This document shows, in pieces, positions 2,201-59,602 of a DNA stretch of 64,000 nucleotides. Position 1 is the first letter of the stretch, and each line of letters begins with the position of its first letter. Source of the DNA: Crenothrix sp. D3 (GTDB taxonomy: Bacteria; Pseudomonadota; Gammaproteobacteria; Methylococcales; Methylomonadaceae); the NCBI GenBank assembly GCA_002134785.1, contig MBQZ01000029.1, positions 62,001-126,000 of the forward strand. Reading direction: 5' to 3'. Under the pieces are notes generated by a model. The model saw nothing but the letters and a program-made list of their open reading frames with translations, was not told the origin of the DNA and searched no databases. Made by a program: the position numbers and the translations under genes.

Positions 2201-2233
2201 AGACCTTTCAGGTTTTAAAAACATGAAAGGTCT
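2201..2233. terminator. 33-bp hairpin, probable bidirectional terminator
   Basis: A palindrome with arms AGACCTTTCAGGTTTT and AAAACATGAAAGGTCT (one mismatch) around a single central base. It lies between convergent genes and contains the moeB stop codon. A close relative of the same length sits at 44541-44573, so this is also a member of a dispersed repeat family. Confidence 0.7.
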
Positions 2234-44540: not shown

Positions 44541-44573
44541 AGACCTTTGAGGTTTTTAAAACCTCAAAGGTCT
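44541..44573. terminator. 33-bp perfect hairpin
   Basis: AGACCTTTGAGGTTTT and its perfect 16-nt complement flank a single central base. It lies between the porin and FMN-binding genes and is a sibling of the hairpin at 2201-2233. It may attenuate transcription between the two genes. Confidence 0.75.
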
Positions 44574-53901: not shown

Positions 53902-55788
53902 ATGTCCACAAACTCAAACAATTATTCTAAAAAACAGCTAGCTGCTTTATCACTCAGTGCCATAGGTGTTGTGTTTGGTGACATTGGCACTAGCCCTCTA
54001 TATGCGGTTAAAGAAATTTTCGGCAATCATTTACTCATTGATAAACTCCATGTATTGGGCGTGTTGTCATTAATATTTTGGTCATTGACTTCAGTGGTTG
54101 CCATCAAATACGCCACTTTTATTATGCGGGCTAATAATAAAGGTGAGGGCGGTATCATGGCATTGATGGCGTTAGCGTTGCAGAGTTCTAAAGACCATCC
54201 AAAACGCCGAGGCTTTATTATTACCATTGGCTTATTTGGTGCGGCGTTATTTTATGGCGATGGCATTATTACGCCTGCCATTTCAGTATTAAGTGCGGTC
54301 GAAGGTTTACAAATTATTGCTCCGCCTTTAGCACATTACATACTACCCATCACCATTGTTGTCCTGAGTGGCTTGTTTATTTTGCAAGCTCGCGGTACGG
54401 GAAAAGTCGGGATATTATTTGCCCCGATTATGTGTGTCTGGTTTCTTACCTTGGGCGGTTTAGGTGTCGTTAATATTATTAAAAATCCAGAAGTATTAAT
54501 GGCAATTAATCCCTATTACGCAGTACACCTACTCACTGAATTAGGTTGGACAGGCTTGTTAATTATGGGATCAGTGGTCTTAGCGATAACAGGCGCGGAA
54601 GCCTTGTATGCTGATATGGGGCATTTTGGTTTGAAACCAATTCGTTATGCGTGGTTTGGCTTTGTGTTTCCGATGTTATTGTTGTGTTATTTTGGGCAAG
54701 GTGCATTGTTATTGGAACATCCTGAAGCGGTGAAAAATCCTTTCTATTTATTAGCACCTAAATGGGCAATGTATCCACTGTTAATTTTAGCCACGCTCGC
54801 CTCAGTCATTGCCTCGCAAGCCGTTATTTCTGGCGCGTTTTCAGTCACTCGACAAGCCATACAACTAGGTTATTGTCCGCGTATGAAAATCGCACATACC
54901 TCAGGTCAAGAAATGGGGCAAGTTTATTTATCCACTGTTAATTGGCTATTGATGGTGTGTGTGTTTATCGTAGTCTTGAGTTTTCAATCGTCATCTGCAC
55001 TCGCTTCTGCTTACGGTATTGCGGTCACAGGCACGATGATTATTGACACCGTGTTAGCATTTATTGTCATTCAAGGGCTATGGCAATGGAAAAAATCTAC
55101 CAGCTTTCTATTTTTATCCACGTTTTTGATTATTGATTTTCTATTTCTATTTGCCAACAGTTTAAAAATTCCCACGGGTGGTTGGTTGCCATTAGTAATA
55201 GGCACAGTGCTGTTTTTAATCATGACAACGTGGATTAAAGGACGTGCTTTATTAGCCAATTACATGGATGAACATCGTCTATTATTTGAGGATTTGGAAG
55301 AAAAAATAATCACGCATCAAGCTGTTTTTGTTAAAGGTACGGCGATTTATTTAGCGAAAACTTTACACGGTGTGCCGCAAGTGTTTTTACATAACTTTGA
55401 ACATAACCATGTTTTACATGAACAAATCATCATTTTGACCATCGTTACCAAAGACGAACCATACATTGATTATGAACACCGCGTTAAAATTCGTCGTTTC
55501 GGAGCTAATCATAATTTTTACCGCGTGAAGTTTTATTACGGTTTTCAACAAAGTCCAGATGTAAGACAAGATTTAGAATTGTGCGCTCAGGGTGGTATTC
55601 ATATTGATTTTCAAGACACTTCATTTTTTATTGGCAGTGAACAAATTACTTTTAAGGAAAGAAACTCATTACCCAGATGGCGTAAAACCTTATTCCTATT
55701 CTTATTTCACAATGCGGCTAGCGCGATAGATTTTTTCAAAATCCCAGTTGAACGGGTGATTGAACTGGGGATTCGCATCAATCTTTAG
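53902..55788 (+). CDS. kup: Low-affinity potassium transporter Kup
   Basis: A 628-aa K+/H+ symporter. The opening segment ALSLSAIGVVFGDIGTSPLY is the family signature, with EGGIMALMALALQ and YGDGIITPAISVLSAVEG, about 12 membrane spans and a C-terminal cytoplasmic domain (RVKFYYGFQQSPDVRQDLE). Its last 11 nt overlap the convergent gene at 55778. Confidence 0.96.
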   Translation: MSTNSNNYSKKQLAALSLSAIGVVFGDIGTSPLYAVKEIFGNHLLIDKLHVLGVLSLIFWSLTSVVAIKYATFIMRANNKGEGGIMALMALALQSSKDHPKRRGFIITIGLFGAALFYGDGIITPAISVLSAVEGLQIIAPPLAHYILPITIVVLSGLFILQARGTGKVGILFAPIMCVWFLTLGGLGVVNIIKNPEVLMAINPYYAVHLLTELGWTGLLIMGSVVLAITGAEALYADMGHFGLKPIRYAWFGFVFPMLLLCYFGQGALLLEHPEAVKNPFYLLAPKWAMYPLLILATLASVIASQAVISGAFSVTRQAIQLGYCPRMKIAHTSGQEMGQVYLSTVNWLLMVCVFIVVLSFQSSSALASAYGIAVTGTMIIDTVLAFIVIQGLWQWKKSTSFLFLSTFLIIDFLFLFANSLKIPTGGWLPLVIGTVLFLIMTTWIKGRALLANYMDEHRLLFEDLEEKIITHQAVFVKGTAIYLAKTLHGVPQVFLHNFEHNHVLHEQIIILTIVTKDEPYIDYEHRVKIRRFGANHNFYRVKFYYGFQQSPDVRQDLELCAQGGIHIDFQDTSFFIGSEQITFKERNSLPRWRKTLFLFLFHNAASAIDFFKIPVERVIELGIRINL

Positions 55789-56512
55789 GTGACACGCTAA
55801 AAAACCACATCTGATACACGCTGAGTAATACTTGCAGTCCCATTGAAATGCCCATTAACGCGCCACTTAACACGACAACATAAGCAAATGACGGCACGGA
55901 TTGAGTAATAAACCATGACAGTGTATCTAATAACATGGCGGCAAAGGGAATTATGACGGCGACTCTTTTGACATAGACATTAATGTCACAGAGTAAAAAT
56001 ATTTTGCCGACAAAAAATAAAATAAAGGCGATACCAAATAAATGAATATGGGACACGCGAATTAAGGAGGCAGTGCTTACTGCGCCTGAGTGGGCAACTT
56101 CGGAAACGCCTTTGTAATTGCCTAAATCAGGCAGACTAGGATTAACACTGGGGTTATGACACATCACGCAATCACGATTCAATATCGGGGCAATTTTATT
56201 TTCATAGCCTGATTCATCTGCACCCGATTGTATCCACGCCAAAATGACATCTTTATCACTTTTTACTTTTAGATTAGGAAGCATAATGCCATTAATCGCC
56301 GTCCCTAAGCGTGTTTGTTCATCAGAACCATGATAATAAATGGTGACATCTTCAATAGTAAGCCCTGCTTTACCATCACGCCCTTGATGGGTGTAGTATA
56401 AATTAGCCAGTGCGGCGATGTAACCCAGTCCTATCGTGAGTAGAAATACGGTATTTAAAATCCGTTCGCTAATAGAAATATCTTTGAAACGTGTATAACG
56501 TTCGTTAGTCAT
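55778..56512 (-). CDS. Membrane protein of the YYxGSxEQ / VSHxHLF family with a haem c motif
   Basis: 244 aa from ATG 56512 (MTNERYTR), preceded by AGG; a start at 56587 would extend into a repeat. Span 1, then IYYHGSDEQ, an extra segment with DCVMCHNPSVNPSLP (CxxCH, typical of c-type haem), then IRVSHIHLFGIAFILFF and three more spans. Without that segment the plan equals the protein at 43447. Probably a membrane-bound monohaem cytochrome; the partner is unknown. Convergent with kup (11-nt overlap). Confidence 0.72.
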   Translation of the reverse strand: MTNERYTRFKDISISERILNTVFLLTIGLGYIAALANLYYTHQGRDGKAGLTIEDVTIYYHGSDEQTRLGTAINGIMLPNLKVKSDKDVILAWIQSGADESGYENKIAPILNRDCVMCHNPSVNPSLPDLGNYKGVSEVAHSGAVSTASLIRVSHIHLFGIAFILFFVGKIFLLCDINVYVKRVAVIIPFAAMLLDTLSWFITQSVPSFAYVVVLSGALMGISMGLQVLLSVYQMWFFSVSPKD

Positions 56513-56532
56513 TATTGCCTCTTTAGTGCTGT

Positions 56533-56650
56533 TAGAGCTAACGTACAATAAAATGATGCCGTTCGTGGTGAGCTTGTCGAACCACATTCATACTTCGACT
56601 GTTCGACAAGCTCACAGCTCAGTGCGAACGGTTTTGTAATCATTTTATTG
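56533..56650. repeat. GTTCGTGGTGAGCTTGTCGAA-type repeat, left of the MmeI-like gene
   Basis: Begins TAGAGCTAACGTACAATAAA and holds GTTCGTGGTGAGCTTGTCGA and, inverted, TTCGACAAGCTCACAGCTCA, ending CATTTTATTG: a full palindrome. Its left portion is repeated directly at 59642. Confidence 0.85.
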
Positions 56651-56713: not shown

Positions 56714-59602
56714 TTACGACTTTATTTTTTTGGATTTTTTAGCAATCTCAGTGTCTATGAGTGGCGCGGTTAGTTTTTGATACTGTTCAAATAAAAATGC
56801 CACTCGTGCGGTGTCATCTTTGCCGCCTTTGTAGTCGTAAGCGGCATCAACGGCTTTGTCTAGGGCGGTATGGGCTTTGAGTAAATCAATGGGCATATTA
56901 CCAGCGGCGTAGAGGGTGGCGAGTGAGTATTTTTGACCTTGCTCAGTGCATCGTTTTTCTTCGGCTTTTCGTGCATTCAAAATCTGTTGTGCGGCGGTTT
57001 CGATTTTGGTTTTTGCCGCTGTTGTGATTTTTTCAGGGAATGGGAAGTTGTTGTAAACGATGGTGTTGGAATAGTTGTAGTCGCTTTTTAGTCGTCCGCA
57101 AACGGTTCGCATCCATGCGTTGTGTATGTGGCTAGTCAATATGCCAAAGTGAAACAAACTGGCATTGGGAACAAAGAATACTTTATTGCCGCAAATGACG
57201 TTAGCATCCAAATAGCCAATCGGTATGTAAAAACGATTTTCTGAAGAAACCGCTGGCATAGCTAAATAAGGCTGGTCAGTTTGTCGAATTTCACCAAACA
57301 AATACGGTGTTGCTGCTAATTTTTGCGTGGCTTCGCGTGGACTTTCTAAACGATTTTTTTTGACTTGTTCAACGCGCTTTTTGATTTCAGGTGAGTTAAG
57401 TCGGTCATTTGAGGTGCTATCTTTTAACCATAAACAGTAACGTGGGATGTTGTTAATAAATTCATTACCCATCAAAAACGGACGAATGTATTTAGCGGCA
57501 ATCGGGTCATTTTTACGAATAGTGTCGGCTTCTTCTTGTGACAGTAGTAAATAACCACCATCGTTGGGCATATTGCCAAAAACCATTTCAGGTACATCTG
57601 GACTTAACGGCTTACGGCGTTTATCAATTAACACCGTGGGCGCGTCCACTAAATACGGATTAATTTGCGTGGCTTTGATTTCAATCGGTTCGCCTTTGAT
57701 GTTGTCGCCATAATCAAATAGTCGGCACGTTTTAGGGATGTTATCCCTTGAAGGGATAACATCCCTGTCTCCTAAATGAAACCCCATAATCACACAATGC
57801 ACAGCGGCAACGCCTTTGCCTTCGTTGCTCCAGCGAAAAGTACGATGAGCAAAATGCAGTTTTACTTTTAGCTTTAATAACTCTGTCCACAAAATCGCGA
57901 CTTGTTCACCTTGCGCTACACTGTTGGTAGAGACAAACGCGACAGGAATATTTTTATTATTTTTTTTTGATTCAGGTTGAATGTAACGCGCCGCTTTAAC
58001 GTGCCAAGCCGCGACTAAATCCAAGACACCCGCGCCATTCATGCCTTGAAAAACTAAGGCTAAATCATCTTTTTGTTCTTTAGTTTGATATTGCCTACCG
58101 ACAAATGGCGGATTGCCCATAATAAAATCGCAATCCTTAGGTTTAATCACCGTTGCCCAGTCTATTTGTAAGGCATTGGCACACACAATATTGGCTTTTT
58201 TCACCAACGGAATGCGGTTGTAATAATTGCCCAATACCTGCACTTTCAAATTCACTTGATGGTCGGTTAGCCACATAGCAACCAGCGCGATATGTACCGC
58301 GCTTTCATCAATGTCGATACCATGAAACTGGTCAACATCACATAAAATCAATGATTGAATTTCTTTGTCAGTCGGCTTAGCACCGCATTGTCTTTTGATA
58401 ACGTCTAATTCTAATAAGCGTAATTCACGGTAGGCGATAATTAAGAAATTACCGCAACCACAGGCGGGATCAAAGAAGTTTAATTTTGCTAGTTTTTGAT
58501 GAAACGTCACTAATTTTCGTTGGTGGGTTTTTGGAATGGCATTAAATTCAGCGCGTAAATCATCCATAAACAACGGGTTAATGACTTTTAAAATATTGGC
58601 TTCGCTGGTGTAATGTGCGCCAAATTCACGGCGTTTTTTGGTTTTGGCAGTCGCAAGCTCATCATCAAAGTGCATAATGGCTTGAAATAATGAGCCGAAA
58701 ATCGCAGGGCTAATTTCGCTCCAATCCAAATTCGCGCATTCAATTAAGATGGCGCGTGAGGATTCATCAAAATAACATTCGGCTAAACCGCCTTCAAATA
58801 ACGCGCCATTAATGTAAGGAAAATCGGCTAAATGTTCGGGTAGATTTTTTAGGCGTTTTTTACCTTTGTAATCAGGATGTTCAGCTAAATATTTTTCATC
58901 GGGCGTGTTTAAGGTGTCAAACAGCTTATTTAACGCGCCATGCAGGTCTGAACCATCGGCGACCGTCCACGTTTTCAGGTAATGTAAAAACGTGCCATTT
59001 TCACCAAACAAGCCCGTATTATCAGCAAATAAACAGAACAATAAACGCACTAAGTAGGTTTCTAAGTCTTTGCCTGTGTAGTCTGTGGCTTTGATGGCAT
59101 CATGTAAGACTGCCATTTTATCAGCGGCTTCTTTGCTAATTCGTTCTAGCCGTTCGGTGACAATTTTTTGATAACCTGTTAAAAAACGAAACCGCTCAAT
59201 GTGTTGCGGTAATTCGGACAGTTTTATTTTTAACGGCTCTTCTTTGGTTTCTTGATTATATAAATGCAGGTTTTGAAAATCACTGACTAATACGCAACGC
59301 GGTAAATCCTCTGTTTTTAAGCCGTCAAAATACTCAGTTGCTTGAACGTAGGCTTTATATAAATCTTCACCTTTTGATTTCATTTCAACTAACAGCAAGC
59401 TAGGAAAAAACGCATCAATACGCCCGTGACCGCTGGCTTTTTTAACTCTATCTTCAAAACGGACGGCTTTGAGGTAGTCCAATTCAAATACATTGCACAA
59501 TCCGAATATAAACTTTTGCCCCTCTCCCATTTCATAATGGGCGGCAGAAAAATCGTTAGCAAATTTGGCAGCGTTATTTCTCAGGGTTTCAATGGTTATC
59601 AT
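56714..59602 (-). CDS. MmeI-like type IIG restriction-modification enzyme
   Basis: A 962-aa single-chain enzyme. N-terminal nuclease (about 1-155): RIDAFFPSLLLVEMKSKG gives a D...ExK site. Helical spacer about 160-330. Adenine-methyltransferase about 330-610, with FFDPACGCGNFLIIAY (motif I, about 377) and GNPPF (motif IV, about 496). Target-recognition region about 620-830, C-terminal helices to 962. The order matches MmeI-type enzymes that methylate one strand and cut about 20 bp away. A palindrome (57734-57766) adds about 11 residues in frame near 613-623. The frame is intact. Confidence 0.88.
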   Translation of the reverse strand: MITIETLRNNAAKFANDFSAAHYEMGEGQKFIFGLCNVFELDYLKAVRFEDRVKKASGHGRIDAFFPSLLLVEMKSKGEDLYKAYVQATEYFDGLKTEDLPRCVLVSDFQNLHLYNQETKEEPLKIKLSELPQHIERFRFLTGYQKIVTERLERISKEAADKMAVLHDAIKATDYTGKDLETYLVRLLFCLFADNTGLFGENGTFLHYLKTWTVADGSDLHGALNKLFDTLNTPDEKYLAEHPDYKGKKRLKNLPEHLADFPYINGALFEGGLAECYFDESSRAILIECANLDWSEISPAIFGSLFQAIMHFDDELATAKTKKRREFGAHYTSEANILKVINPLFMDDLRAEFNAIPKTHQRKLVTFHQKLAKLNFFDPACGCGNFLIIAYRELRLLELDVIKRQCGAKPTDKEIQSLILCDVDQFHGIDIDESAVHIALVAMWLTDHQVNLKVQVLGNYYNRIPLVKKANIVCANALQIDWATVIKPKDCDFIMGNPPFVGRQYQTKEQKDDLALVFQGMNGAGVLDLVAAWHVKAARYIQPESKKNNKNIPVAFVSTNSVAQGEQVAILWTELLKLKVKLHFAHRTFRWSNEGKGVAAVHCVIMGFHLGDRDVIPSRDNIPKTCRLFDYGDNIKGEPIEIKATQINPYLVDAPTVLIDKRRKPLSPDVPEMVFGNMPNDGGYLLLSQEEADTIRKNDPIAAKYIRPFLMGNEFINNIPRYCLWLKDSTSNDRLNSPEIKKRVEQVKKNRLESPREATQKLAATPYLFGEIRQTDQPYLAMPAVSSENRFYIPIGYLDANVICGNKVFFVPNASLFHFGILTSHIHNAWMRTVCGRLKSDYNYSNTIVYNNFPFPEKITTAAKTKIETAAQQILNARKAEEKRCTEQGQKYSLATLYAAGNMPIDLLKAHTALDKAVDAAYDYKGGKDDTARVAFLFEQYQKLTAPLIDTEIAKKSKKIKS
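57734..57766. repeat. Palindrome inside the MmeI-like gene
   Basis: AGGGATGTTATCCCTT and its perfect 16-nt complement around one central base, read in frame as part of GDRDVIPSRDNIPKTC. It falls at the boundary of the methyltransferase and target-recognition regions. Confidence 0.9.

Follow-up and report, generated by a model that had tools for sequence, protein, structure and literature searches.

Why should a perfect palindrome of 33 bp stand in frame within the gene of a large restriction-modification enzyme, exactly where its methyltransferase domain gives way to its target recognition domain (TRD)? The question is raised by one locus in the window, by which we mean the whole stretch of 64,000 nucleotides from Crenothrix sp. 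D3 that was analysed. The answer that we reach, and hold to be probable, is that the turn at the methyltransferase/TRD junction is permissive and has time and again taken up REP-like elements in frame, and that these elements turn over and are exchanged locally between alleles. The features of the window gene on which the argument depends are as follows:

56714–59602, minus strand: gene for an MmeI-type (Type IIL/IIG) restriction-modification enzyme of 962 aa (Pfam, PADLOC, PDB 5hr4)
57776–58528, minus strand: MmeI methyltransferase domain, residues 359–609 (Pfam PF20473)
57773–57802, minus strand: predicted beta strand before the insert, residues 601–610 (AlphaFold2 model)
57734–57766, minus strand: 33-bp palindromic element, residues 613–623 (RDVIPSRDNIP), on the coding strand AGGGAT-GTT-ATCCCT-TCA-AGGGAT-AAC-ATCCCT
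57713–57727, minus strand: predicted beta strand after the insert, residues 626–630 (AlphaFold2 model)
57032–57643, minus strand: MmeI target recognition domain, residues 654–857 (Pfam PF20466)
57014–57034, minus strand: second permissive site at the TRD/C-terminal boundary, about residues 857–863, empty in the window gene

The palindrome is composed of AGGGATGTTATCCCTT-G-AAGGGATAACATCCCT, two 16-nt arms that are 100% complementary with 1 nt between them, and lies in frame in the 962-aa reading frame, to which it adds the residues RDVIPSRDNIP. An initial annotation had described it as a 33-bp palindrome with 16-bp perfect arms, in frame at the methyltransferase/TRD boundary, and both the sequence and the Pfam coordinates agree with that description. 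Four hexamers, alternately direct and inverted and set apart by spacers of three bases, make up the element: AGGGAT-nnn-ATCCCT-TNA-AGGGAT-nnn-ATCCCT. As RNA the element folds with −24.5 kcal/mol (z −6.8), a stability equalled by 0 of 200 shuffles and by 0 of the 102 segments of the same length in the window gene. The chance expectation for such repeats is below 0.001 per 64 kb (a 4^-16 estimate, with loops up to 60 nt).

The gene itself encodes an MmeI-type enzyme. All five MmeI Pfam domains (N, hel, Mtase, TRD, and C) score over the cut-off in the window protein, which thus combines N-terminal nuclease, helical spacer, N6-adenine methyltransferase, TRD, and C-terminal domain in a single chain, PADLOC assigns it to REase_MTase_IIG with 1059 bits, and the MmeI structure, PDB 5hr4, matches it with an E-value of 5e-262; the AlphaFold2 model compared with 5hr4_C gives a Z of 45.7 over 739 residues (rmsd 3.2, 53% identity). 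Because the methyltransferase match stops at residue 609 and the TRD match starts at residue 654, the insert lies between both domains, and in the AlphaFold2 model residues 613–622, all with a pLDDT under 50, form part of the beta-hairpin turn between strands 601–610 and 626–630. Columns D63, E73, K75, D378–L387, and N497–F500 are invariant in 39 sequences, and these we take to be the catalytic motifs (PD-ExK type, DPACGCGNF, and NPPF). With the turn left out, dN/dS is 0.13–0.16 in six gene pairs and 0.23 in a seventh, values which indicate that the MmeI-type enzymes in the pairs tested are under purifying selection. An inactivated window gene is rejected on account of its open frame and the dN/dS of 0.13–0.15 in its three pairs; the window enzyme is presumably active.

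The palindrome is not private to the window gene, as further copies in the genome rule this out. Searched with up to 3 mismatches, the full 33-mer has two sites in the own genome (that of Crenothrix sp. D3), one in the window gene and the other in a further MmeI gene, located on contig C51; the core, ATCCCTTNAAGGGAT, has 8 exact copies there and 2 more with one mismatch. Across the own genome and 40 relatives, the exact core is found in 11 of the 41 genomes, with 8 copies in the own genome, 7 in G004, 7 in G007, 59 in G022, and one or two in seven others; among viral contigs, the exact 33-bp pattern gave 0 matches. Nine of the ten own copies were examined (the one-mismatch copy L117 was left out), and three of these nine lie in open reading frames (ORFs) of at least 150 aa, namely the two MmeI paralogues and a gene for an nSTAND1-WD40 NTPase on contig C8:

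L108 (G000:C8), residues 285–295 of the translated frame, reverse: element in the nSTAND1-WD40 NTPase gene, reading RDNIPSRDVIP

A relative of this NTPase gene in G004, 53% identical, is without 12 residues at the place of the insert. Among the remaining six own copies, five lie in no frame of 100 aa, and L110 stands midway in a stop-to-stop frame of 106 aa. In G022, 22 of the 59 copies were examined, and none of them has 30 codons to either side within a frame of 100 aa; one core match in G018 (L119), in a 453-aa frame, has 7-bp arms only and is regarded as a chance match. Both MmeI copies have GTT as their first spacer triplet and AAC as their second; the order is reversed, AAC before GTT, in the other seven own copies.

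The element is thus REP-like, lying for the most part between genes and occasionally within them, and in the wide sense of the term (20–40 bp, multi-copy, mostly intergenic) it is a REP. The initial annotation had suggested that coding sequence here tolerates a REP-type insertion, to be checked by a search of the genome; that search finds the palindrome in multiple copies, and the suggestion is further supported by their position mostly outside long ORFs and by the absence of the added residues from relatives. As had been expected, these residues are missing from MmeI and from all of the homologues shown but the C51 paralogue, in which the palindrome is identical, and among the homologues aligned there is no case of RDVIPSRDNIP without the nucleotide palindrome.

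How exceptional such a position is can be seen from the placement of palindromes in general. With perfect arms of at least 13 and a loop of up to 60, the window has five palindromes. Only the 33-bp one is enclosed by an ORF (150 aa or longer, 30 codons to either side), and at this threshold the earlier statement that the other palindromes of the window are intergenic holds true. The palindrome at 56568–56615 (TGAGCTTGTCGAA...TTCGACAAGCTCA) overlaps the predicted start region of the ORF 55778–56587, and its repeat is a frequent one, accounting for 10 of the 32 palindromes in a 424-kb sample of the own genome. This sample consists of the window and 18 of 20 fetched stretches (those on C8 and C51, fetched for their copies in genes, were left out). 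At an arm length of 13 or more it contains 32 perfect inverted repeats; of these just 2, one being the window palindrome, lie inside ORFs of at least 150 aa. Mechanical ORFs of this length fill 83% of the 424 kb, and with even placement somewhat under 26 would be expected inside; palindromes are therefore generally kept out of genes, and the MmeI turn is the exception.

A sister family of 33-bp palindromes, built on the same nested plan from a hexamer of the ACCT type, is also present in the window (2201–2233 and 44541–44573). When up to 2 mismatches are allowed, the own genome has 51 copies of it, with inner triplets that vary and mostly stay complementary, and 1 of the 15 copies checked lies within an ORF, near the ORF start.

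The same turn is filled again and again in homologues of the window gene. We assembled 124 MmeI loci, 110 after duplicate removal (80 from public genomes, the rest from the own genome's family); the set includes fragments, many of the sequences come from metagenome-assembled genomes (MAGs), and the inverted-repeat scan covered the tblastn-aligned stretches only. In these 292,569 aligned bases, 13 perfect inverted repeats were found (arms of at least 12, loops up to 60), with centres at query residues 614–620 in 10 of the 13, at 857 and 863 in two, and at 547 in one. The turn has exactly 8 residues in 73 of the 110 homologues and 12 or more in 18. In a narrower alignment of 40 genes, cut at 55% identity or more and the presence of the turn motif, it measures 8 codons in 22 genes, 6 in 2, 10 in 1, and at least 11 in 15; the 16 turns of at least 30 nt were folded. 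Of the long turns, 13 of 15 form strong hairpins (z −2.8 to −11.3). In 11 of the 13 genes concerned, every other segment of equal length is less stable, the exceptions being L031 (1/173) and L038 (6/50). The long turns of L140 (z −1.5) and L090 (z 0.4) are without a clear hairpin, and the 10-codon turn of L046 has a z of −3.1, with 5 of 159 segments as stable.

Sorted by eye, the inserts of the 13 hairpin genes represent eight types of sequence: the 33-bp element, GTAGGTYGGGTT, GTGGGAGCG, GAGGTCAG, GTAGGTGCGAA, GTAGGAGCGGGC, GGCGAAAAATTTTTCGCC, and GTAGGAGAGGC. Genome copy numbers were counted for four of the eight. The GTAG-type GTAGGTYGGGTTRSG has 16 sites in G007, two of which are its two MmeI genes, and GGCGAAAAATTTTTCGCC is found at 2 sites in G105 and 2 in G085, with MmeI holding one of the two in either genome; a search with up to 1 mismatch gave no other copy of the GTGGGAGCG type (L029 and L048) in the two genomes that carry it. 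The aligned frames are free of stops in 12 of the 13 insert-bearing genes, with a stop at query residue 489 in L037; L156 is without about residues 313–550, and these two genes may be inactive.

At the second site, the TRD/C-terminal boundary, palindromes are found in L028 and L030 and, with shorter arms, in L038 and L048. Longer loops at this site were scored by eye in 7 of the 14 genes with a filled turn versus 1 of the 25 scored genes with an empty one (one empty gene does not cover the site). Separately, the MmeI gene of a Chiayiivirga MAG (L083), with an open frame of 1015 codons, contains, in frame at about query residue 547, an inverted repeat of 78 bp whose arms measure 30 nt; this is a third palindrome-accepting place of MmeI enzymes.

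The inserts also differ in their tags. The ends of the nine own copies are AGGG, ACAG, ACGG, or ATAG, and the 33-bp element has neither the GTAG nor the CGTC tag; several of the homologue inserts begin with GTAGG and finish with CCTAC. For GTAG types, the likely agent is a transposase of the REP-associated tyrosine transposase (RAYT) family, and the own genome has at least one such gene:

L163:678–1256: RAYT gene of the own genome (NF047646, 205 bits)

This gene lies between GTAGGATGGGTAGA GTAG palindromes and is not flanked by the 33-bp element of the window. A Pfam scan of the locus with all stops read through gave no match; the ordinary ORF matched the NCBIfam RAYT model.

The filling of the turn changes quickly. 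L057 and L043 have different palindromes despite 92–96% nucleotide identity in the four parts compared, and so do the window gene and L028 at 90–92% identity. On a quick tree calculated with the turn columns removed, the filled and empty states (14 vs. 26 genes) require no fewer than 8 changes (branches with strong support make 6 of these unavoidable), and the insert type at least 13; the filled state is somewhat clustered, as low a number being reached in 7 of 500 shuffles. The two own MmeI paralogues, in turn, are about 76% identical with a dS of about 1.1, yet their palindrome is identical, and it lies within a stretch of 93–100% identity, to which its nearest flanks (about 10 codons before it and 40 after) belong. 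An identical palindrome with its flanks fits local recombination between the paralogues. Flank identity is raised in three of the four pairs that share an insert (residual ranks 88, 19, and 25 of 697), and the fourth ranks 654. Alternatively, the turnover could be recombination with unseen alleles; among the homologues no empty allele differing only by the element was found, and the turn of the window gene minus its 33 bp would have 7 codons, not 8.

Identity also varies along genes that have no palindromes. Between L141 and L049 it is 0.98 in the N domain, 0.85 in the methyltransferase, and 0.56 in the TRD, and between L166 and L169 it is 0.88 in the N-terminal parts against 0.58 in the TRD; both pairs are cases of natural TRD exchange.

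We thus picture the following course of events. A dispersed 33-bp REP-like element would have entered the gene in frame at the short beta-hairpin turn with which the methyltransferase domain closes, just ahead of the TRD. The turn would tolerate added residues, and different palindromic elements could thereby be received repeatedly in Methylococcales, being gained, lost, or replaced faster than the genes diverge and sometimes passed between alleles by local recombination. The process behind this would be that REP-like DNA transposes or is copied, and that the products survive only at places where the protein can accommodate them. We infer that the element arrived as DNA, and that structural tolerance, rather than a target preference, makes the hotspot.

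Could the inserts instead be kept for a function, either by altering the hinge between methyltransferase and TRD or as an mRNA hairpin that slows translation at the domain boundary? A structured element with an effect on translation was also the second suggestion of the initial annotation. The hairpin of −24.5 kcal/mol would suit such an effect and the TRD rotation between BpuSI and MmeI, as given in the available portion of PMC4833311, a change of the hinge; palindromes at three places of the enzyme (residues 547, 614–620, and 857–863) and an identical palindrome in paralogues at a dS of about 1.1 would also speak for it. We nevertheless consider it unlikely: insert sequence and length differ between close genes, the turn has only 8 or 6 codons in 24 of the 40 close homologues, and in the paralogues the likeness extends from the palindrome to its nearest flanks (at least 93%), as is explained by recombination.

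Bolder, and decidedly improbable in our estimation, is a reading in which the MmeI-type enzymes of methanotrophs possess dedicated docking turns flanking the TRD that constantly capture palindromic repeats, these repeats being recombination joints that shuffle DNA specificities between alleles and paralogues. A plainer form of it takes the palindromes as recombination joints that swap TRDs, with the repeats at the methyltransferase/TRD and TRD/C-terminal boundaries bracketing a specificity cassette. Palindromes are indeed found at both ends of the TRD in L028, L030, and L038, the identity of L028 and L038 is higher in the TRD (0.89) than in the N (0.68), methyltransferase (0.76), and C (0.80) domains, and the raised flank identity in three of the four insert-sharing pairs would agree with it as well. 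What makes the plainer form very doubtful is that identity shifts gradually, with no sharp breakpoint at the palindrome, and that TRD exchange is equally strong without inserts, as in L141 and L049; as the main role of the palindromes, TRD swapping is rejected in view of the equally clear exchange in insert-free genes.

A preference of the mobile elements for a DNA target, in place of tolerance by the protein, would account for inserts that all lie within a few codons of each other, but it is highly improbable given that the site is common to eight palindrome types, GTAG-tagged and untagged, and that two other places are used. Finally, a chance palindrome arising from codon usage in an ordinary loop, in a family whose turn does vary in length, is effectively dismissed by the perfect 33 bp, the genome copies elsewhere, and an RNA fold that neither shuffles nor gene segments (0/102) equal.

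The reading that we prefer, a permissive turn filled by REP-like elements, has several precedents. GTAG/CGTC REPs are short multi-copy palindromes, in the available text of PMC3733652 mostly intergenic, some intragenic, and many in DNA replication or repair genes; recB of two Xanthomonas species has different REPs at about the same site (PMC3733652). They likewise include intragenic palindromes, and several of the MmeI-homologue inserts have the form GTAGG...CCTAC; unlike them, as far as they are described in that text, the window element is without a tag, and in the present case eight types share a single turn of a single enzyme family. The Rickettsia palindromic elements (RPE), known here by description, are in-frame repeats that add residues to proteins probably still working, with RPE-4 and RPE-6 counted among the CGTC repeats and RPE-1 called longer in the same portion of PMC3733652. 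An in-frame palindrome is common to both; the 33-bp element of the window differs in having no CGTC tag and in belonging to another lineage. The QMITEs of Coxiella are inverted repeats that are mobile and extend proteins by in-frame amino acids (PMC5896051), but they concern other element families and other genes, and that source notes no preference of location within hypothetical proteins. MmeI itself (PDB 5hr4; PMC4833311, in the portion available) has the five domains in common with the window protein and is without an insert in the turn. Among the matches listed in a literature search by title and start of abstract, none concerns palindromes in MmeI-type genes. In-frame REPs are known; what appears to be new is the multi-family, fast-turnover hotspot in MmeI enzymes.

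In-frame palindromic repeats have mostly been reported as scattered oddities; here, a single turn of a defence enzyme has them in eight types, and near-identical genes differ in which one they carry. This amounts to a natural insertion series, in which one can follow how selfish DNA becomes protein sequence, whether it is put to use or just tolerated, and how fast it turns over. At the methyltransferase/TRD junction, it also provides natural homologues with 3 to 28 extra residues, which may serve the engineering of MmeI enzymes.
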